Shown: piece after piece, positions 5,650-54,871 of the stretch | Position numbering within the stretch: the first letter of the stretch is position 1 | How the letters are laid out: each line of letters starts with the position of its first letter | Translations under genes and position numbers: made by a program | Assembly (NCBI GenBank): GCA_018660265.1 | Contig: JABJKS010000040.1 | Coordinates: forward strand, 1 to 64,000 | Direction of reading: 5' to 3' | Length of the DNA stretch: 64,000 nt | From: Rhodospirillaceae bacterium | GTDB taxonomy: Bacteria; Pseudomonadota; Alphaproteobacteria; GCA-2731375 | The notes under the pieces: generated by a model | Told to the model about the DNA's origin: nothing | Databases searched by the model: none | The model's input: the letters and a program-made list of their open reading frames with translations, nothing else

Positions 5650-7026
5650 ATGGCCGAACTTATTGATCAAATCCGCGACATCGTCGGTGAACGCGGCGTC
5701 GTGGTACACGAGGATTTGCTGGGCCGAAGTGCCGGGTTTCGACACCCGAACGAAACCTTGCAGGCGAAATTCCTGGTCCGCCCCGCCAACACCGACGAAG
5801 TCTCCAAAGTTTTAAAGCTATGCAATGATGCAGGCCAGGCTGTGGTCAGCCAGGGCGGATTGACCGGCCTGGTGGACGGAAACATTGCTGGCCGGGATGA
5901 AGTAATCTTGAGCCTGGAACGGATGCGCGAGATTGAAGAGATCGATCCCGCCTCCTCTTCCATGACCGTGCAGACAGGCGTTACACTGCAATCTGTGCAA
6001 GAGGCCGCGGACGAGGCCGGCTTTTTCTTTCCCCTTGATCTGGGCGGGCGTGGTTCTGCGACCCTAGGGGGTAATGTCTCCACCAACGCAGGCGGCAACC
6101 GGGTCGTCCGCTATGGCATGGCGCGCGATATGGTGCTGGGGATGGAGGCTGTGCGGGCCGACGGTACGGTGCTGAATTCCCTGAACAAAACCATCAAGGA
6201 CAACGCGGGCTATAACCTAAAGCATCTGTTTATTGGTTCTGAAGGGACGTTGGGTGTGGTCACCCGTTTGGTCCTGCGCCTGCGCCCGAAACCGGCCAGT
6301 CAGGAAACCGCTTTTCTGGCGGTGGACGATTTCAACAAGCTGCCGAAATTGCTGAATTTCTGTAATGGCCGCTCGGGCGGTGGTCTGTCGGCGTTTGAGG
6401 TGATGTGGAAGGAATATTTTCAACTTGTTCTTTCGACCCCCGGCGCAGCACAGCCCTTACCTGGCGACTATCCTTTCTACGTCCTGATGGAAGTCATCGG
6501 CGGCGATACGCAAGGTGACGGCGAACGCTTCGAAAATATGCTGGCCGCTGCGTTGGAAGAAGGCCTGTTGGTCGATGCGGTCATCGCCAAATCAGAGGGC
6601 GAACGCCAGGCCATGTGGGCCCTGCGTGACGATGTGGAAAGTCTGGACCGCTGGGGGCCCCGGGTTGGCTTTGACGTGGGCCTGCCCATTGCGGAGATGC
6701 CCGCCTATTTGGATGAAATCGACAAACCCATCGTGGCTGAGTGGCCAGACCGAAAACGCGCCGTCTTTGGCCATTTGGGCGACGGCAACTTGCACATCAC
6801 CTATTCGGTGGGAGAAAACGGTGCCAACGTTAAAAAGGTCATAGATGACGCCGTCTACCTGCCCTTGGCCAGCCGGGGCGGTTCAGTCTCTGCTGAACAT
6901 GGAATTGGGTTGGCCAAAAAAGCCTATCTGGAAGTCTCCCGCAGCCCGGCGGAAATTGAATTGATGCGGGAATTGAAAACGATGATGGACCCGAACAATA
7001 TTCTAAACCCCGGTAAGATTTTTTAG
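5650..7026 (+). CDS. FAD-binding oxidoreductase (D-2-hydroxyglutarate/glycolate dehydrogenase type)
   Basis: A 458-residue flavoprotein of the vanillyl-alcohol-oxidase fold, GlcD/D2HGDH branch. The N-terminal FAD domain contains the pyrophosphate-binding loop (VSQGGLTGLVDG) and the second FAD stretch (GGNVSTNAGG, then GSEGTLGVVTRL). The C-terminal FAD-oxidase domain has the metal-site histidines in GHLGDGNLHI and the closing SAEHGIG motif. Such enzymes oxidise D-2-hydroxyacids and pass electrons to a flavoprotein or quinone. The start is ATG 5650 (MAELIDQI). Its TAG stop overlaps the GTG start of soxB by one base, so the two are translationally coupled and the substrate may feed the same pathway. 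Confidence 0.87.
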   Translation: MAELIDQIRDIVGERGVVVHEDLLGRSAGFRHPNETLQAKFLVRPANTDEVSKVLKLCNDAGQAVVSQGGLTGLVDGNIAGRDEVILSLERMREIEEIDPASSSMTVQTGVTLQSVQEAADEAGFFFPLDLGGRGSATLGGNVSTNAGGNRVVRYGMARDMVLGMEAVRADGTVLNSLNKTIKDNAGYNLKHLFIGSEGTLGVVTRLVLRLRPKPASQETAFLAVDDFNKLPKLLNFCNGRSGGGLSAFEVMWKEYFQLVLSTPGAAQPLPGDYPFYVLMEVIGGDTQGDGERFENMLAAALEEGLLVDAVIAKSEGERQAMWALRDDVESLDRWGPRVGFDVGLPIAEMPAYLDEIDKPIVAEWPDRKRAVFGHLGDGNLHITYSVGENGANVKKVIDDAVYLPLASRGGSVSAEHGIGLAKKAYLEVSRSPAEIELMRELKTMMDPNNILNPGKIF

Positions 7027-8282
7027 TGAGCAAATACTCTCTAACCAGTCTTATCCGCCATGGCCTGACCGGGCACCGGGGCTGGAAACCAGCCTGGCGG
7101 CACCCGGAGCCGAAGGCGGAATATGACGCCGTCATCGTTGGTGGCGGCGGGCATGGTCTGGCGACCGCCTATTATCTGGCGAAGAACCACGGCACGACGA
7201 ATATCGCAGTGCTGGAAAAAGGTTGGCTGGGCGGCGGCAATACGGGGCGGAATACGACGATTGTTCGCTCCAACTACCTGCTTGACGGCAATGCGAAATT
7301 TTACGAACACGGCATGAAACTGTGGGAAGGGTTGAGCCAGGATCTGAACTACAATGTCATGTTCTCTCAGCGCGGCGTGCTGAACCTGGCCCATTCCAAG
7401 GGCCAGCTGGAAACCTTTCGCCGCCGGGGCAATGCCATGCGTCTAAACGGCATCGATGCGGAAATTCTAAACCGGGACGACGTCGCCAAATTCGTTCCCG
7501 CCATGGACACCTCCCCCAACACACGCTTCCCCATCGAAGGCGGCCTGTTGCAACCACGCGGCGGCTCTGCCCGCCATGATGCGGTGGCCTGGGGCTATGC
7601 CAGGTCGGCGGATCAACGGGGCGTCGATATCATCCAGAATTGCGAAGTGACCGGCATTCGGCGGGATCAAAACGGTGTCCTCGGCGTAGAGACCAGCCGG
7701 GGTTATATCGCCACGAAAAAAATTGGCCTGGCGGTCGCGGGCCATTCCAGCCAACTGGCGGCAATGGCGGATGTACGATTACCAATCGAATCCCATGTCC
7801 TCCAGGCCATGGTCAGCGAACCGGTCAAACCGGTGCTGGATACAGTCGTCACCTTTGGCGCGGCGCATCTTTATGTCAGCCAGTCCGACAAAGGCGAATT
7901 GGTCATGGGTGGTGACATTGATGGCTATAACTCCTTTGCCCAAAGAGGCAGCCTGGCCGTTATCGAGCATGTGACGACGTGTCTGGTCGCACTGTTCCCG
8001 CAATTCAGCCGGCTGCGCATATTGCGCACCTGGGGCGGCATCATGGATATGACCACGGATGGCAGCCCGATCATCGGCACCACGCCGGTACCGGGATTGT
8101 TCCTGAACGGGGGCTGGTGCTACGGCGGCTTCAAGGCGACACCTGCATCGGGATGGGTCTTCGCCCATACCCTCGCCACCGGACAACCCCATGCCCTGAA
8201 CGCTGAATTAAGCCTGGATCGTTTTCATACGGGCCGGGTGCTGGATGAAAAGGGTGCCGGCCCTTATCCCTGGCTGCATTAG
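7026..8282 (+). CDS. soxB: Sarcosine oxidase subunit beta
   Basis: At 418 residues it has the normal length for the beta subunit of heterotetrameric sarcosine oxidase. This subunit holds the non-covalent FAD and the covalent FMN, and demethylates sarcosine to glycine. The Rossmann dinucleotide motif is at about residue 35 (VIVGGGGHGLATAYYL), followed by GGGNTGRNTTI and, near the end, the FAD-contacting GGWCYGGFKATPASG. The N-terminal leader (SLIRHGLTGHRGW) is typical of SoxB. Translation starts at GTG 7026, overlapping the upstream stop. SoxD follows after 17 bases, and the order B-D-A-G is the standard operon. Confidence 0.95.
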   Translation: MSKYSLTSLIRHGLTGHRGWKPAWRHPEPKAEYDAVIVGGGGHGLATAYYLAKNHGTTNIAVLEKGWLGGGNTGRNTTIVRSNYLLDGNAKFYEHGMKLWEGLSQDLNYNVMFSQRGVLNLAHSKGQLETFRRRGNAMRLNGIDAEILNRDDVAKFVPAMDTSPNTRFPIEGGLLQPRGGSARHDAVAWGYARSADQRGVDIIQNCEVTGIRRDQNGVLGVETSRGYIATKKIGLAVAGHSSQLAAMADVRLPIESHVLQAMVSEPVKPVLDTVVTFGAAHLYVSQSDKGELVMGGDIDGYNSFAQRGSLAVIEHVTTCLVALFPQFSRLRILRTWGGIMDMTTDGSPIIGTTPVPGLFLNGGWCYGGFKATPASGWVFAHTLATGQPHALNAELSLDRFHTGRVLDEKGAGPYPWLH

Positions 8283-8299
8283 GTCGATAGGGAAATGGC

Positions 8300-8608
8300 A
8301 TGATTTTAATTACCTGCCCCCACTGCGGTCCGCGCCAGGAAAGCGAGTTTACCTATGGCGGTGACGGGGCAAATGCACGACCGGCGGCGCCCGAAGATGT
8401 GGATGACGCGGCCTGGATCGATTACCTCCACCTGCGCGATAATCACAAGGGTCCACATGATGAACTGTGGCAGCACGTCCAGGGCTGTCGCCGCTGGTTG
8501 CAGGTGCGCCGTGATGTTGTGACACACCAGGTCATAAGCTGCCATGTTTTGTCGGCGGACATAGCGGACCTGGCGGACTCGGCGGATATGGTGGAGGGTG
8601 AAAGATGA
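8300..8608 (+). CDS. soxD: Sarcosine oxidase subunit delta
   Basis: A 102-residue zinc-binding subunit of heterotetrameric sarcosine oxidase. The N-terminal CPHCG motif supplies two Zn ligands; the later His and Cys of the family are seen in LWQHVQGCRRW. The FTYGGD segment and the C-terminal ADSADMVEGER region, which crosses into the alpha-subunit gene, are typical. The stop overlaps the soxA start as ATGA, so translation is coupled. Confidence 0.95.
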   Translation: MILITCPHCGPRQESEFTYGGDGANARPAAPEDVDDAAWIDYLHLRDNHKGPHDELWQHVQGCRRWLQVRRDVVTHQVISCHVLSADIADLADSADMVEGER

Positions 8609-11388
8609 GCCGCCATCCAGCCATGGGCCGCTTGCTTGATCGCGACCGCCCGCTGTCATTTACCTTTGATGGTAAATCCTATCGCGGCTATCAGGGCGAT
8701 ACCCTGGCCTCCGCCCTGATGGCGAATAACATTCGCGTGCTGGGGCGCAGTTTTAAATATCACCGTCCCCGGGGCATTTTTGGTGCCGGCAGTGAAGATC
8801 CATCCGCCCTGGTCCAATTGCGCACCGCAGGCCGGACGGAGCCCAATATCCGCGCAACCCAGGTGGAGCTGTATGACGGCCTTGTCGCCCATAGCCAAAA
8901 CAACTGGCCGTCCCTGGACTGGGATCTGGGCGCGGTTCTGGGTCTGGCGTCAAAATTCCTGCCTGCTGGCTTCTATTACAAGACATTCATGTGGCCTGCA
9001 AAATTCTGGCCCCATTACGAACGACTGATCCGCAACATGGCCGGCATGGGACGAAGTGCCGAAACCCCGGACCCGGACCGCTATGAAAAACGCCACGCCC
9101 ATTGCGATGTCCTGGTCATTGGCGGTGGTCCCACGGGCCGGGCGGCAGCACTAGCGGCAGCGAAAGACGGCAGCGATGTTTGGCTGGTCGATGAGAACGC
9201 GCATATCGAGGAACTGGACGGCGTTACCGTCATGGCGCGCACCACAGCGTTCGGGAAATATGACGACAGCCTTTATGGCCTGCTGGAACGCACCGGCGAT
9301 CATCTGGCCGCACCAAAGGATGATGCGCCCCGACAGATCCTGTGGTTGCTGCGCGCTGGCCGGATGATCCTGGCCAGCGGGGCCATCGAACGCCCACTGC
9401 TATTTGCCAATAACGACCGACCCGGCATCATGTTAGCCGGTGCCGCGGCGCGCTTTCTGGCCGACTATGGCGTGTGCCCCGGCAAACGTGCCGTGATCGT
9501 CACCAATAACGACAGCGCCTATGCGGTGGCCCAAACTTTGATCGACGGCGGCATTGATATTGCCGCGATCATTGATCAACGGCACCTGACCACCCGGCGG
9601 GAAATTGCGGGCTGTGAGATCCTGCATAATCACGGGGTCATCGACACCGCAGGACGCCGTGGCCTCACCAGGGTCACGGTCGCGCCCCTGGACGTCAATG
9701 GTGATGCCGTCCCGCAGTCAGAGAGGTTGCTGGACTGCGACCTGCTTTGTGTCGCGGGCGGCTTCACGCCCAGCGTGCACCTGTATTCCCAGGCCGGCGG
9801 CAAGCTAACCTTTCGCGACGATATCCAGACCATGGTGCCGCATGGCGAAGTAGGGGGCATCACAGTTGTGGGGGCGGCAAATGGCGAGCTGGATGGCGGC
9901 GTCGGCGAGCCCCTCAACCTCAGTCTTGGCCGGGCGAAACAGTTCATCGATCTACAAAATGATGTCACGGCGGCGGATGTGGAGCTGGCGGCGCGGGAAG
10001 GTTACCAATCCGTCGAACACCTGAAACGCTACACCACACTGGGTATGGGCACGGATCAGGGCAAGACGTCGAACCTGAACGGCATTGCCGTACTGGCCGG
10101 TGCCCTGGACAAGCCGCAAGCGGACGTCGGCATCACCACCTATCGCGCGCCCTATACCCCGGTGACCATCGGTGCTTTAGCAGGACGAGAGGTCGGCACC
10201 TTCCTAACACCGACCCGGCGCACGCCCCTGCAGGAGTGGCACGAAGACAACGGTGCCGTCTTCGTCCCCGCCGGCCTGTGGCGGCGGCCCCACTATTACC
10301 CCCGCCCGGGAGAGACAATGGCGGATGCGGTCAACCGCGAGGTCCTGGCTGTACGGCAGAATGTGGCAATCGTCGATGTCTCCACCCTGGGGCGGATCGA
10401 TCTGCATGGCGGTGATGTGGCGGAGTTTTTGAACCGGGTCTACATCAACGGTTTCAAGACCCTCGATATCGGCATGTGCCGCTATGGCGTGATGCTGCGG
10501 GATGACGGCATGATATTTGATGACGGCACCGTGGCCCGCATGGGAGATGGCCACTATATCATGACCACGACCACCGCCAATGCGGGGCCGGTCATGGCCC
10601 ATCTGGAATATTATCTACAGGTGGTCTGGCCCGATCTGGATGTACATCTGACATCCATCACGGATCAATGGTCCGTGGTCGCCGTCGCGGGCCCGCAGTC
10701 CCGCGCCCTGTTGGAAAGCCTGGACAGCGATATGGAATTCGCCAACCAGGCATTGCCTTTCATGGCTTGGCGGGCCGGGCAAATTGGCGGCATCACGGCG
10801 CAGGTTTTCCGCATTAGTTTTTCGGGCGAGTTGGCCTACGAGATTGCCGTGCCCGCCGATCATGGTCATGCCCTATGGGAAATGTTGCTGGCTGCGGGCG
10901 AAGATCTCGGCATCATACCTTACGGCACGGAAGCCTTGACCACCCTGCGCACAGAGAAAGGCCATTTCGTCATGGGGCCGGAAGCCGATGGCCGCGCCAG
11001 CGCCGATGATATGGGCCTTGGCGGCATGCTCTCTGCCAAGAAAGATTTTATCGGAAAGCGCTCCCTGCGCCTGCCCGCCCTGGAGCCCGAGGGGCGGCCA
11101 AATCTGGTCGGCCTGATCCCCAAAGACGGCAAAACGGCCATCCCGCCCGGTGCCATCATGGTGGATCGGGAAACCCCGGGGCCGGGCATGGAAAAAGCCG
11201 GGCATGTAGCAACATCCGTGTTCTCGGCCAGCCTTGGCAAACCCATTGCAACAGCAATGGTGACCAATGGCCGCCAGCGTCACGGTGAAACCTTGTGGGC
11301 CCATTCACCCGTCGACGGCCGTGTCGTCCCGGTGGAGGTCACGGACCCGGTGTTCATTGATCCAAAGGGGGAGCGTCTGCGTGCCTGA
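8605..11388 (+). CDS. soxA: Sarcosine oxidase subunit alpha
   Basis: A 927-residue subunit that binds NAD+ and tetrahydrofolate and channels the one-carbon unit. The N-terminal 2Fe-2S-like fold comes first (FTFDGKSYRGYQGDTLASAL, then SFKYHRPRG). A Rossmann domain follows (VLVIGGGPTGRAAAL near residue 170). The C-terminal third, from about 560, is a glycine-cleavage T-protein domain with ISFSGELAYEI. The protein is shorter than the roughly 960-1000 residues usual in the family. The stretch of about 30-40 residues that normally follows the Rossmann motif and contains an FGG signature appears to be missing between WLVDENAH and IEELDGVTV. The frame is intact, so this looks like a true internal deletion. 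A small overlap with soxD and soxG supports one operon. Confidence 0.94.
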   Translation: MSRHPAMGRLLDRDRPLSFTFDGKSYRGYQGDTLASALMANNIRVLGRSFKYHRPRGIFGAGSEDPSALVQLRTAGRTEPNIRATQVELYDGLVAHSQNNWPSLDWDLGAVLGLASKFLPAGFYYKTFMWPAKFWPHYERLIRNMAGMGRSAETPDPDRYEKRHAHCDVLVIGGGPTGRAAALAAAKDGSDVWLVDENAHIEELDGVTVMARTTAFGKYDDSLYGLLERTGDHLAAPKDDAPRQILWLLRAGRMILASGAIERPLLFANNDRPGIMLAGAAARFLADYGVCPGKRAVIVTNNDSAYAVAQTLIDGGIDIAAIIDQRHLTTRREIAGCEILHNHGVIDTAGRRGLTRVTVAPLDVNGDAVPQSERLLDCDLLCVAGGFTPSVHLYSQAGGKLTFRDDIQTMVPHGEVGGITVVGAANGELDGGVGEPLNLSLGRAKQFIDLQNDVTAADVELAAREGYQSVEHLKRYTTLGMGTDQGKTSNLNGIAVLAGALDKPQADVGITTYRAPYTPVTIGALAGREVGTFLTPTRRTPLQEWHEDNGAVFVPAGLWRRPHYYPRPGETMADAVNREVLAVRQNVAIVDVSTLGRIDLHGGDVAEFLNRVYINGFKTLDIGMCRYGVMLRDDGMIFDDGTVARMGDGHYIMTTTTANAGPVMAHLEYYLQVVWPDLDVHLTSITDQWSVVAVAGPQSRALLESLDSDMEFANQALPFMAWRAGQIGGITAQVFRISFSGELAYEIAVPADHGHALWEMLLAAGEDLGIIPYGTEALTTLRTEKGHFVMGPEADGRASADDMGLGGMLSAKKDFIGKRSLRLPALEPEGRPNLVGLIPKDGKTAIPPGAIMVDRETPGPGMEKAGHVATSVFSASLGKPIATAMVTNGRQRHGETLWAHSPVDGRVVPVEVTDPVFIDPKGERLRA

Positions 11389-11896
11389 AACCCCATCTCG
11401 CCGCTCCGCCCTAGATCAGTTCAGCCGGGGCATGGAACCCAACGACCTGATCCGGGAACGCACGGGCCTGTGGATCCAGCGCCTCTATGCCCCCAACGGT
11501 GTGCCGGGGCTGGCGCTGCCAGAACAACCGAATACCGCCAGCAGCAAAGACGGCCTGCATGCCTTCTGGGTCGCGCCGGGGGAATGGCTGCTTGTGGCGG
11601 ATCAGGCCAAGGATATTGCCAGTGCGGCCCAGAACAAGCTGAGCGATCTCAGCCATGCCCGCACGGTGTTCCGGCTGGAGGCTGCAACAGCGCGCGACAT
11701 CCTGGCGAAAAGCTGTCCCCTGGATTTGCGTTTGGAAAAATTCCCCCCCGGCCATTGCGCCCAAAGCGGCCTGGGCAGCCTCTCCCCCGTCTCCATCCTG
11801 GTGCATCATTTGGAAGACGGAAGCCACATGGACCTTTACGTCCCCCGCAGCTATGGCCAACACGTTTACGCCTGGTTGGTGGACGGCACGCATTGA
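11381..11896 (+). CDS. soxG: Sarcosine oxidase subunit gamma
   Basis: A 171-residue gamma subunit, the small folate-domain-like partner of SoxA. The motifs LHAFWVAPGEWLL, HARTVFRLEAATARDILAKS and CPLDLRLEKFPPGHCAQS, with a histidine-rich end (ILVHHLEDGSHMDLYV), fit the SoxG family. I chose the GTG at 11381, which overlaps the last eight bases of soxA and follows the ribosome-binding site AAGGGGGAG. A longer frame from 11267 is only antiparallel noise inside soxA. Confidence 0.88.
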   Translation: MPETPSRRSALDQFSRGMEPNDLIRERTGLWIQRLYAPNGVPGLALPEQPNTASSKDGLHAFWVAPGEWLLVADQAKDIASAAQNKLSDLSHARTVFRLEAATARDILAKSCPLDLRLEKFPPGHCAQSGLGSLSPVSILVHHLEDGSHMDLYVPRSYGQHVYAWLVDGTH

Positions 11897-12332: not shown

Positions 12333-12839
12333 TTAGGTATGTCGTTCGATAAACGCCTCGAACACCGCGACGATATCGGCGGCCATCATTTGTTCAGACG
12401 CCATACTGCGTTCGGTGATGGGCAGGCCAACCTGTTTACGCAGTTCCTGATTATTCATGGCACGGGCCCATTTCGGATCGTGGGCGATCAAACGTCCAAA
12501 AAACACCCCGCTATCGGCGGCATCTGCAGCATAGAAAAGTCGTGCAATGCCAGCCTGATACATGGTCGCCACGCACATGGCGCAGGGTTTGCCGGAGGTA
12601 TAAAGATCGGCGCCTTTAAGGCTTGTAACCGATAGCTTGGCGCAGGCATCTCGGATTGCATCAACTTCTCCATGGGAGGTTGGATCGCATTTCGCCTCGG
12701 CCCGGTTCAAACCTTCCCCAACGATCTTGCCATCCATGACAACAACAGCGCCATAGGGTAGCGTACCCGGTTGATCAATGCTTTCCGCCGCGATCGCAAT
12801 TGCGCGGGCCATGAATTTTTCATGCATGGGAGTATCCAC
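12333..12839 (-). CDS. Nucleoside/guanine deaminase-like protein (CDA superfamily)
   Basis: A 168-residue zinc-dependent deaminase. The active-site HGE (SHGEVDAIRDA, with Glu as proton shuttle) and the Zn-binding PCAMC pair are both present with normal spacing. The fold and length match guanine deaminase/tRNA-adenosine-deaminase-like enzymes; the substrate is uncertain. The longest start is GTG 12839, directly following the TAG of the upstream gene (TAGGTG). An ATG four codons in is the alternative. It is the third gene of the operon GST-GFA-deaminase. Confidence 0.85.
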   Translation of the reverse strand: MDTPMHEKFMARAIAIAAESIDQPGTLPYGAVVVMDGKIVGEGLNRAEAKCDPTSHGEVDAIRDACAKLSVTSLKGADLYTSGKPCAMCVATMYQAGIARLFYAADAADSGVFFGRLIAHDPKWARAMNNQELRKQVGLPITERSMASEQMMAADIVAVFEAFIERHT

Positions 12840-13274
12840 CTAATCCTCCGGAATTGCGAAGTGGTGCATCTCCGGGAAAGAACCGTAGCGGGGAATGTCG
12901 TCACCCGATGTGTCGGCGGCGTAGTCCGCGGCCTCGTCCAAAAAGATGCGCATCATCAGATGCAGGCCGGTGGGTTGATCCAGGCTGCCGGCGGTAATGG
13001 TAATTGTGTCCCCACCATCGCGCCGAAAAAACATGGTAGAGCCACAATTGGAACAAAAACCGCGTTCAACTTTTTCCGAACTGCGATACCAGCTTAAACT
13101 ATTCCGGTCGTCATCAATGCTGACATCAGCCAGACGGGCACCGATGGCGTGCCAGACACTGCCCGTCAGACGCCGACAGCTTTCGCAATGGCATTCCACC
13201 ACTTGCCGCACGGGTCCGGTAATTTCATACCGGACCCGGCCGCAATGGCATTTACCGCTGCGTCGTGCAGACAT
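12840..13274 (-). CDS. GFA-family zinc-binding protein (CENP-V/GFA type)
   Basis: A 144-residue protein with the cysteine pattern of the glutathione-dependent formaldehyde-activating family. KCHCGRVRYEI gives the first Cys pair, ECHCESCRR the central set, and FCSNCGSTMF the third. These cysteines bind zinc. The family name comes from a proposed glutathione/formaldehyde role in Paracoccus that may not hold for all members. It sits 14 bases after the GST gene and directly before the deaminase. Its nearness to soxBDAG, whose reaction can release formaldehyde, makes an aldehyde- or glutathione-linked role plausible but unproven. Confidence 0.85.
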   Translation of the reverse strand: MSARRSGKCHCGRVRYEITGPVRQVVECHCESCRRLTGSVWHAIGARLADVSIDDDRNSLSWYRSSEKVERGFCSNCGSTMFFRRDGGDTITITAGSLDQPTGLHLMMRIFLDEAADYAADTSGDDIPRYGSFPEMHHFAIPED

Positions 13275-13288
13275 ATCTATACCTTAAG

Positions 13289-13984
13289 CTATTCTGCCGC
13301 GACGGTGCTTTCGCCCAACAAGGTGCCGACGTACCAGCCACGGGTGCGCAGGTTATTGAAGAACACTTCCTCAAAGCTATCGTGGACCGATCCGATCACC
13401 GCATCGTCCTGTATCAAAGCCTCCGCCCAGGCACGGACCAGGGGGAAATCTTTCAGGGCACCTGTTTGAACGAATTGCTCAATCAGCATAAACCGCTGCA
13501 AAAACGGCGCATATGAGGCATCCACCAGGCTGATTTCGGGGCCATTGAAATACGGCCCCTCGTTATCCCGATCATTGGCGATCGCATCTTCCAGCTTTTG
13601 GAAAAAGGTCGAGATACCTTCCAGTTTCTCGTCCATCGCTTCCCGGGACTTAGTGTAGTAGATGTTGATACCTTTGGAAAAGTCCGGCACGAAATCCGTC
13701 CAGGCCCGGTTGCGGGCCCGCTTGAACGGGTCGGCCGGATGGCATTTCGGGTCCACCACGTCTTCAAGATATTCCGCGATAGCATTGGATTCGAACAATG
13801 GCTCCCCATCCACGGACAACACGGGCACCTTGCCATGCGGTGAGATTTTCAGGAACCAATCGGGCTTGTCAGTCAGATCAATGTAGGTAACGTCAAAATC
13901 GACATTTTTCGCACGCAAAAGAATCACGGCGCGCTGTACCCACGGTCAAGTGATCGAGCTGATCAGATGATATTTCTTCGCCAT
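13289..13984 (-). CDS. Glutathione S-transferase, predicted selenoprotein (Sec encoded by TGA at 13946-13948)
   Basis: I read this as a 231-residue GST whose codon 13 is an in-frame TGA read as selenocysteine. Translation from ATG 13984 gives MAKKYHLISSIT, then TGA, then PWVQRAVILLRAKNV. The TGA falls exactly on the catalytic Cys of the CPWVQRA motif found in omega/beta-like bacterial GSTs. Downstream the fold is intact: HGKVPVL for glutathione binding, ESNAIAEYLED, and a helical C-terminal domain. The start follows a GGGGAG ribosome-binding site at 13994-13999. A start at GTG 13927 would drop 19 residues, including the first strand and active site. A fitting SECIS hairpin follows the TGA, and tRNA-Sec is encoded at 54776. 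The alternative is a nonsense mutation or a base error for TGC. First gene of a three-gene operon. Confidence 0.8.
13911..13934 (-). promoter_or_regulatory. Predicted bacterial SECIS element in the GST mRNA
   Basis: On the mRNA, 11 bases after the UGA, GCGCGC (13934-13929) pairs with GCGUGC (13916-13911) to give a six-base-pair stem with one G-U pair. The stem closes a 12-base loop (13928-13917). The loop starts CGUG, so a G lies in its first two bases, and the UGA-to-loop distance is 17. Both agree with the known bacterial SECIS layout recognised by SelB, as in fdhF of E. coli. Stem stability was judged by eye only. Confidence 0.6.
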
Positions 13985-14404
13985 ATCAGGCATCTCCCCA
14001 AAGTCTGGATTTTTGAACGACAGGTAAGCATAAGCCCAGGATTTAGCGCCGTCAAAGCATTGCCAATCCCGGCGCGGGGCCAGGCAACTCGACAAGGCCC
14101 ACGCCTCATACCAACGGCCCCGCTATGTCGCCGCTGCCGTTGGTGCTGATCATATCGTTCGGGATGCGGACGAGGCCCTGAACGGGCTGGCCGCGTAGAC
14201 GCACTTCGCTATTGGATACATTGTTGATTTCGGGGATTGGCGGCGCGGCAGGTGTCCACGTAAGCAGGACCCAGGAATTCCTGTTCTTTGTACTGGCGGC
14301 GCATCCGGTTCTTGATGTCAACCGCCCTGGGAAGGCCCTCACCCTCTTGTTAGACGGGTAGTTTCCTATGATTTCCTTAAGAAATGGTGAAGAGCCGACT
14401 GCCG
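13985..14404. other. Non-coding region between the GST operon and the gabD-like gene
   Basis: This stretch holds the GST ribosome-binding site and presumably its promoter near 14000-14080. It also holds the possible gene remnant at 14106-14340. I see no complete gene, RNA or clear terminator in it. On the far side it borders copy B of a dispersed hairpin repeat (14405-14477). Confidence 0.5.
14106..14340 (-). pseudogene. Possible frameshifted gene remnant, family not recognised
   Basis: On the minus strand, two overlapping frames each look protein-like. From 14340 one reads EGLPRAVDIKNRMRRQYKEQ and on to GPAYVDT. From about 14252 the neighbouring frame continues PAAPPIPEINNVSN to IPNDMISTNGSGDIAGPLV, ending at 14106. 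Joined by one frameshift they give about 78 continuous residues. No start codon or ribosome-binding site is convincing, and I cannot name the family. It may be a degraded gene or chance. Confidence 0.25.
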
Positions 14405-17676: not shown

Positions 17677-18381
17677 ATGATCGAAGAAATACTCTTGCTT
17701 GCCGAACCGGTCCTGAGCGAAGGACTTGAGACAGTTTTGCAAGCGGCTAATCCACACTTGAAAATCACGCCCATCCAGTCCCTGGCGCGACTTGAGGCAA
17801 AATGCCGTGGTCGGCAGGAGGGAACCCGGCTAATTTCATTCGGTTCAGAGATTATCGTTCCGACCGCTATCCTGGAAGTCTTGGGCGCGGGGGCTTATAA
17901 TTTCCATCCCGGGCCGCCGACCCATCCGGGACGTTTTCCATCCTGTTTCTTTATTTACGGTGGCGGGGAGCGGTTCGGGTCAACCGTGCATGAGATGGCA
18001 GCCAAGGTTGACAGTGGGCCTATCAATGCCGTGGATTGGTTTGCAGTGCCGAACGACGTTGACCGTTTGACGTTGGATGCCATGAGTTTTCGCTCGCTTT
18101 TTGCACTCTTTCGCAAACTCGCGCCCCATCTGGCGGTTAGCGCTGAACCCTTGCCGTGCATCAACGAGGCTTGGAGCGGCCGTGCGACGACACAGCAAGA
18201 CTTCGAGGCAATGTGCCGTTTGCCTCCCGACGTGAGCGAGCAAGAGTTCCGGCTCCGTTATCGCGCCGTTGGCGAAGGGCCAAATCACGCCCTCGAAATC
18301 AGCTTGTTCGGACATCGCTTCTGCCTGCGCAATCAACAGAGCAACCCGGAGGTATTAATCGGCGGGGAGAAACGTAGCTGA
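17677..18381 (+). CDS. Formyltransferase-like protein
   Basis: A 234-residue protein resembling the catalytic domain of methionyl-tRNA formyltransferase and relatives. The central NFHPGPPTHPGRFPS matches the family's substrate loop, where His of the H-P-[GS] motif is catalytic. The downstream GSTVHEMAAKVDSGPI matches the segment with the catalytic Asp (VDSG). It is shorter than Fmt (about 310 residues) and lacks the OB-fold C-terminal domain. It is therefore probably not the main Fmt but a sugar- or amine-formylating relative, or a non-enzymatic member. Divergent from the thioesterase. Confidence 0.7.
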   Translation: MIEEILLLAEPVLSEGLETVLQAANPHLKITPIQSLARLEAKCRGRQEGTRLISFGSEIIVPTAILEVLGAGAYNFHPGPPTHPGRFPSCFFIYGGGERFGSTVHEMAAKVDSGPINAVDWFAVPNDVDRLTLDAMSFRSLFALFRKLAPHLAVSAEPLPCINEAWSGRATTQQDFEAMCRLPPDVSEQEFRLRYRAVGEGPNHALEISLFGHRFCLRNQQSNPEVLIGGEKRS

Positions 18382-54775: not shown

Positions 54776-54871
54776 GGAAGGGGAACGTATTCCGGTGTTG
54801 CGCGCGGGCTTCAAACCCGTTGAGGGGCGTTAGACGTGCCTGGTGGGTTCGACTCCCACTCCTTTCCGCCA
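54776..54871 (+). tRNA. selC: tRNA-Sec (selenocysteine, anticodon TCA)
   Basis: A 96-base tRNA with the special features of bacterial tRNA-Sec. The acceptor stem has eight pairs (GGAAGGGG with TCCTTTCC, two G-T pairs). The D region holds TTCCGGTG, and the anticodon stem GCGGG/CCCGT encloses CTTCAAA with anticodon TCA. A long variable arm (about GGGGCGT-TAG-ACGTGCC) and a T arm GTGGG TTCGACT CCCAC follow, ending in an encoded GCCA. It lines up well with E. coli selC, which is 95 bases. It reads UGA as selenocysteine with SelA, SelB and SelD, none of which is in this window. A predicted selenoprotein is: the GST at 13289-13984. Confidence 0.95.

Follow-up and report, generated by a model that had tools for sequence, protein, structure and literature searches.

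A glutathione S-transferase gene of a Rhodospirillaceae bacterium with probable selenocysteine at its catalytic position

An in-frame TGA in a glutathione S-transferase gene

Does a single TGA codon at the catalytic position of a glutathione S-transferase (GST) frame encode selenocysteine (Sec)? The frame in question lies on the minus strand at positions 13984-13289 of the window, i.e., the whole stretch of 64,000 nucleotides that was analysed. Its translation reads MAKKYHLISSIT-U-PWVQRAVILLRAK... and comprises 231 residues, with one internal TGA at codon 13 (13948-13946) and a TAG stop codon at 13291-13289. Codon 13 is the catalytic position within the motif C/U-P-W-V-Q-R-A and aligns with the catalytic Cys of Omega GSTs, confirming the original prediction of a full GST that starts at ATG 13984 and is interrupted by one TGA where relatives carry this Cys. 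The top Pfam match was GST_N_2 (PF13409) over residues 12-75 (E = 1.2e-19), the C-terminal half being covered by GST_C_2. A scan of the 64-kb window for other read-through genes revealed no further convincing candidate.

The probable ribosome-binding site GGGGAG was located at 13999-13994 on the minus strand, nine bases upstream of ATG 13984, as had been proposed. A second in-frame ATG at 13993 abuts this element, and ATG 13984 is therefore the better start; the majority of homologues start at the equivalent position. A standard gene caller selects GTG 13927 (codon 20), again as anticipated, and the catalytic residue is consequently missing from the annotated product. Throughout the Sec-GST family, standard start choice thus constitutes a systematic annotation trap that deletes the active site.

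Homologues were collected from species-representative genomes, giving 80 loci. TGA was present at the exact codon in 44 of these, in all of which the frame is kept and the entire downstream GST is retained. A near relative (L054, 54-57% identity) has TGT at this codon and all 34 distant homologues (34-43% identity) have TGC or TGT, while codon 13 was outside the coverage of one locus (L056); hence, 44 TGA and 35 Cys codons fall into one alignment column, which is the Sec/Cys exchange that the original prediction had suggested looking for. The Sec-GST, each time with one TGA, occurs in 12 of the 15 genomes of the GTDB family to which the window belongs, eleven of these genomes representing other species. 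A class-wide sample of 385 genomes yielded close matches in 17, with TGA in 12; the five matches without TGA (L107-L111) have Cys in CPWV(Q/H)RAA. No conserved second Cys was found in the homologue alignment.

As a matter of principle, a frame that is open apart from one stop codon frequently indicates a pseudogene or a sequencing error. Here, this explanation has a negligible probability and was rejected on the basis of the 44 TGA homologues; eleven further species of this GTDB family share the identical TGA, and the frame downstream of it is intact, with a low pN/pS. Since independent assemblies of other species carry TGA at codon 13, sequence comparison excludes a base error at 13946-13948 for practical purposes.

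Constraint around the TGA and Sec machinery of the genome

Selection was analysed on 36 dereplicated Sec forms. The pN/pS value was 0.18 at codons 4-12, 5' of the TGA, compared with 0.19 at codons 21-60; this similarity on both sides of the TGA implies that translation runs in one frame from the segment before the TGA into the remainder of the gene. The highest synonymous conservation of the gene was revealed at codons 17-20 (CAG CGC GCC GTG), which ranked first among 140 four-codon windows with a synonymous excess of 0.51 versus 0.19 in the next best window. A comparable excess at these codons was absent from the Cys homologues.

Codons 17-20 correspond to the 5' arm and the beginning of the loop of a hairpin at 13934-13911 (minus strand), composed of GCGCGC, the 12-nt loop CGUGAUUCUUUU and GCGUGC. 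The stem begins 11 nt and the loop 17 nt downstream of the UGA, and 97% of the hairpin pair cells are kept. Based on the synonymous constraint and its position after the UGA, this element is a probable bacterial SECIS, which is also consistent with the G in its apical loop. The stability of the window hairpin was not exceptional in comparison with shuffled sequences. No compensatory changes were found in the stem among the Sec forms; because the stem scarcely varies, RNA covariation is uninformative. In two loci (L051 and L055), the hairpin seems to be shifted in register, with a 7-nt loop, CGUGAUU, and a GGGC/GCCC stem replacing the usual GCGCGC/GCGUGC.

These data bear on a reading in which the TGA is a true stop codon and an N-truncated GST without catalytic residue is produced from GTG 13927, the GTG being kept as a start. 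The gene caller chooses this codon, and it is found in 43 of the 45 Sec-type loci; however, the two exceptions have GTC (L041) and GTA (L046) at this site and retain the TGA, for which reason the truncated product was rejected. Moreover, codons 17, 18 and 19, located ahead of the GTG, are likewise synonymously constrained, codons 4-12 evolve as protein, and, in terms of the AlphaFold model, the truncated product would lack strand 1 as well as the initial turns of helix 1. Overall, a truncated product is very unlikely.

The genome to which the window belongs, that of a marine-type alphaproteobacterium (5.5 Mb, 97% complete), contains all of SelA, SelB, SelD and tRNA-Sec, the set required for bacterial selenoproteins; the original prediction had named the lack of selA, selB or selD as evidence that would speak against it. 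SelA was matched with E = 1e-157 (TIGR00474, 579 bits) and is adjoined by SelB (NCBIfam TIGR00475, 431 bits). SelD (L092) has an in-frame TGA of its own. A second SelD (L093, 262-2529), without in-frame TGA, is fused at its N-terminus to a domain that was assigned by eye as NADH-dehydrogenase-like. The gene for tRNA-Sec (selC; 54776-54871, plus strand; anticodon TCA) was detected by ARAGORN and matched Rfam RF01852 with 66.1 bits at a gathering threshold of 47. This gene is solitary, and the contig bearing selA/selB (C1) is a different one. Its location outside selB contrasts with diverse Alphaproteobacteria, whose selC is nested within that gene (PMC8124441). A SelW-like Sec gene with a CMMU motif (MKIDIEYCMMUNYEP...; L112, minus strand, approximately 1480-1700) was found in the same genome, and the best match to formate dehydrogenase alpha in this genome had no in-frame TGA. 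Thus, at least three Sec-using genes appear to be present.

SelA was found in 35 of the 36 Sec-GST genomes searched; there was no SelA match in G006, and G008 and G034 yielded SelA fragments only, all being draft assemblies. Among genomes with Cys forms, SelA was present in that of L054 and in each of the five that carry L107-L111, but in only one of five with distant Cys homologues.

Translation of the TGA as Trp or Cys, via suppression or a changed genetic code, would also account for a frame that is clearly translated across this codon. It is extremely unlikely given that the genome possesses the complete Sec machinery, that Sec and Cys are exchanged exactly at the catalytic site, and that a hairpin footprint lies downstream of the TGA. 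A changed genetic code was rejected, as TGA terminates other genes of the window, e.g., those at 17677-18381 and 8605-11388.

Considering the frame, the Sec machinery, the TGA and Cys homologues and the constraint up- and downstream of the TGA, we are highly confident in predicting 13984-13289 to be a functional selenoprotein gene, in which UGA codon 13 is read as Sec. The machinery, the 44 TGA loci and the constraint at codons 17-20 lend support to the selenoprotein originally proposed. SelB and Sec-tRNA-Sec would decode the UGA as Sec, presumably guided by the short hairpin immediately 3' of it.

Fold, glutathione site and predicted chemistry

The AlphaFold2 model (pLDDT 93, pTM 0.90) placed residue 13 immediately N-terminal to helix 14-25, i.e., at the helix-1 N-cap, where Omega GSTs have their Cys. 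In Foldseek, Tau GSTs ranked first by E-value with Omega and DHAR close behind, so that the fold does not settle an assignment to the Omega class. A sequence search gave Leishmania thiol-dependent reductase 1 (TDR1), pyrimidodiazepine synthase and GST Omega-1 (GSTO1) as first matches, whose CPF/CPY motifs have their Cys opposite position 13 in the alignments. The Omega-type glutathione-site residues (Lys of KPxW, VP and ES) are present, their correspondence being taken from the sequence-search alignments. Among 41 Sec and Cys homologues, K40, W43, V53, P54, E65 and S66 are invariant; with the exception of W43, we take these to be the glutathione-site residues of Omega GSTs, following the roles in GSTO1.

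GSTO1 (PDB 1eem) and TDR1 (4ags) share with the window GST the common fold, the catalytic residue at the helix-1 N-cap in C-P-F/W-x-Q-R, and the KP(D/E)W, VP and ES residues. They differ in that the window GST, at approximately 25% identity, has Sec in place of Cys, and TDR1, in addition, consists of two GST domains. Closer in sequence are the rhizobial/Bradyrhizobium CPYVQRA GSTs and the L107-L111 clade (36-50% identity), which have a common active-site region but Cys at position 13, and which lack a synonymous constraint of similar strength at codons 17-19.

A Cys at the helix-1 N-cap is the signature of the Omega and DHAR classes, and Omega GSTs perform thioltransferase and dehydroascorbate reductase chemistry via this residue (PMC10045047). 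The product of the window gene is likely a monothiol, glutathione-dependent oxidoreductase of the Omega/DHAR type (thioltransferase, deglutathionylase or peroxidase) that uses a selenolate. In the proposed cycle, the selenolate, located at the helix-1 N-cap site of the Omega catalytic Cys, would attack a glutathionylated disulfide, a peroxide or a similar substrate, and the resulting Se-SG adduct would then be released by a second GSH. A monothiol cycle is likely because no other Cys is conserved. Sec that was engineered into GST active sites results in peroxidase activity (PMC9944854); these man-made enzymes were obtained by converting Ser or Cys in other GSTs, whereas Sec in the window GST would be natural and genetically encoded. 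They resemble it in having active-site Sec beside glutathione, which suggests possible peroxidase-like chemistry.

Alternatively, the selenoprotein could serve mainly in conjugation or binding, as a classical GST or in metal or metalloid handling, and not in a glutathione-dependent redox cycle. This role would be compatible with the review statement that approximately 70% of the selenoprotein families with a predicted binding partner involve metals (PMC13188914). It is nevertheless rather unlikely, since the N-cap Cys marks the Omega/DHAR classes with their thiol transfer and reduction, and the engineered enzymes point to peroxidase activity.

Relationship to known GST-like selenoproteins and origin of the Sec clade

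The window GST belongs to an already known kind of selenoprotein, reported since 2005. Four GST-like sequences were described from the Sargasso Sea metagenome (Zhang, Fomenko and Gladyshev 2005, PMC1088965) and 12 GST selenoproteins from GOS (2008, PMC2398784), in agreement with the original prediction's mention of such proteins in marine metagenomes. Reviews from 2022 and 2026 list PPR62222.1 (PMC9312934) and MEK9676863.1 with PF13409 (PMC13188914), respectively, and describe the functions of the listed selenoproteins as largely uncharacterised; no characterised member was reported in the cited literature on GST-like selenoproteins. The window GST, with its PF13409 match, conforms to the description of a COG0625/PF13409 GST with Sec at the catalytic site (PMC1088965). 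It has an in-frame UGA, Cys homologues and a candidate bacterial SECIS in common with the marine proteins, and PF13409 in common with the protein listed in PMC13188914.

The marine proteins have been listed for twenty years from metagenome fragments, whereas the present gene is tied to near-complete genomes of hosts with Sec machinery and to a resolved clade with Cys relatives. A literature search retrieved no report of Sec genes in MAGs of the Rhodospirillales. New are the genome-resolved hosts, the grouping of the Sec forms in a single clade next to a Cys clade, a case of probable Sec-to-Cys loss and the quantified SECIS footprint.

All Sec forms constituted one well-supported group in both protein trees (80 proteins, support 100/99; 70 proteins, 100/96), and the Cys clade L107-L111 was its sister (98/92 for the uniting branch). 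The Cys form L054 (2231-2869), from a SelA-bearing genome, was nested within the Sec group on a long branch, its precise position there having moderate support. Both hairpin arms are kept in L054 (CAGCGCGCC...GCGCGCC), and GCC-AT replaces GTG-AT of the loop, which fits a later loss of Sec; thus, L054 is probably a natural Sec-to-Cys conversion within the clade. Together, the machinery, the Cys sister clade and this probable loss make a direct test of the contribution of selenium to a GST possible. We tentatively propose that the Omega-type scaffold carries a naturally evolved seleno-peroxidase or seleno-deglutathionylase dependent on glutathione, which may have become fixed a single time, in one clade of Proteobacteria, with Sec giving way to Cys on at least one occasion. 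If true, this would be another natural pairing of Sec and glutathione, beside GPx and Sec-glutaredoxin.

Downstream of the Sec-GST, at a distance of 14 nt, lies a gene of the glutathione-dependent formaldehyde-activating enzyme (GFA) family (12840-13274, minus strand), with which it is probably co-transcribed. This gene is directly followed by a deaminase gene of the TadA/cytidine-deaminase type (12333-12839, minus strand; below the NCBIfam cut-offs). The gene for sarcosine oxidase alpha (soxA), together with its associated genes, is located beside the GFA gene and the GST at 7026-11896 on the plus strand. The GFA, deaminase and sarcosine oxidase neighbours are common to only about ten close relatives, within which formaldehyde from sarcosine oxidation could link sarcosine oxidase, the GFA gene and the GST. 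As these neighbours are not conserved across the Sec-GST family, gene context was dropped as a functional clue.

The Sec group comprises Alphaproteobacteria, some contigs labelled as Gammaproteobacteria and one labelled as Acidobacteria, and the taxonomic labels of these MAG contigs may be wrong. The Sec-GST of the Acidobacteria-labelled contig (L020) branches inside the genus-level cluster of the window, and its label is a probable binning or labelling error.
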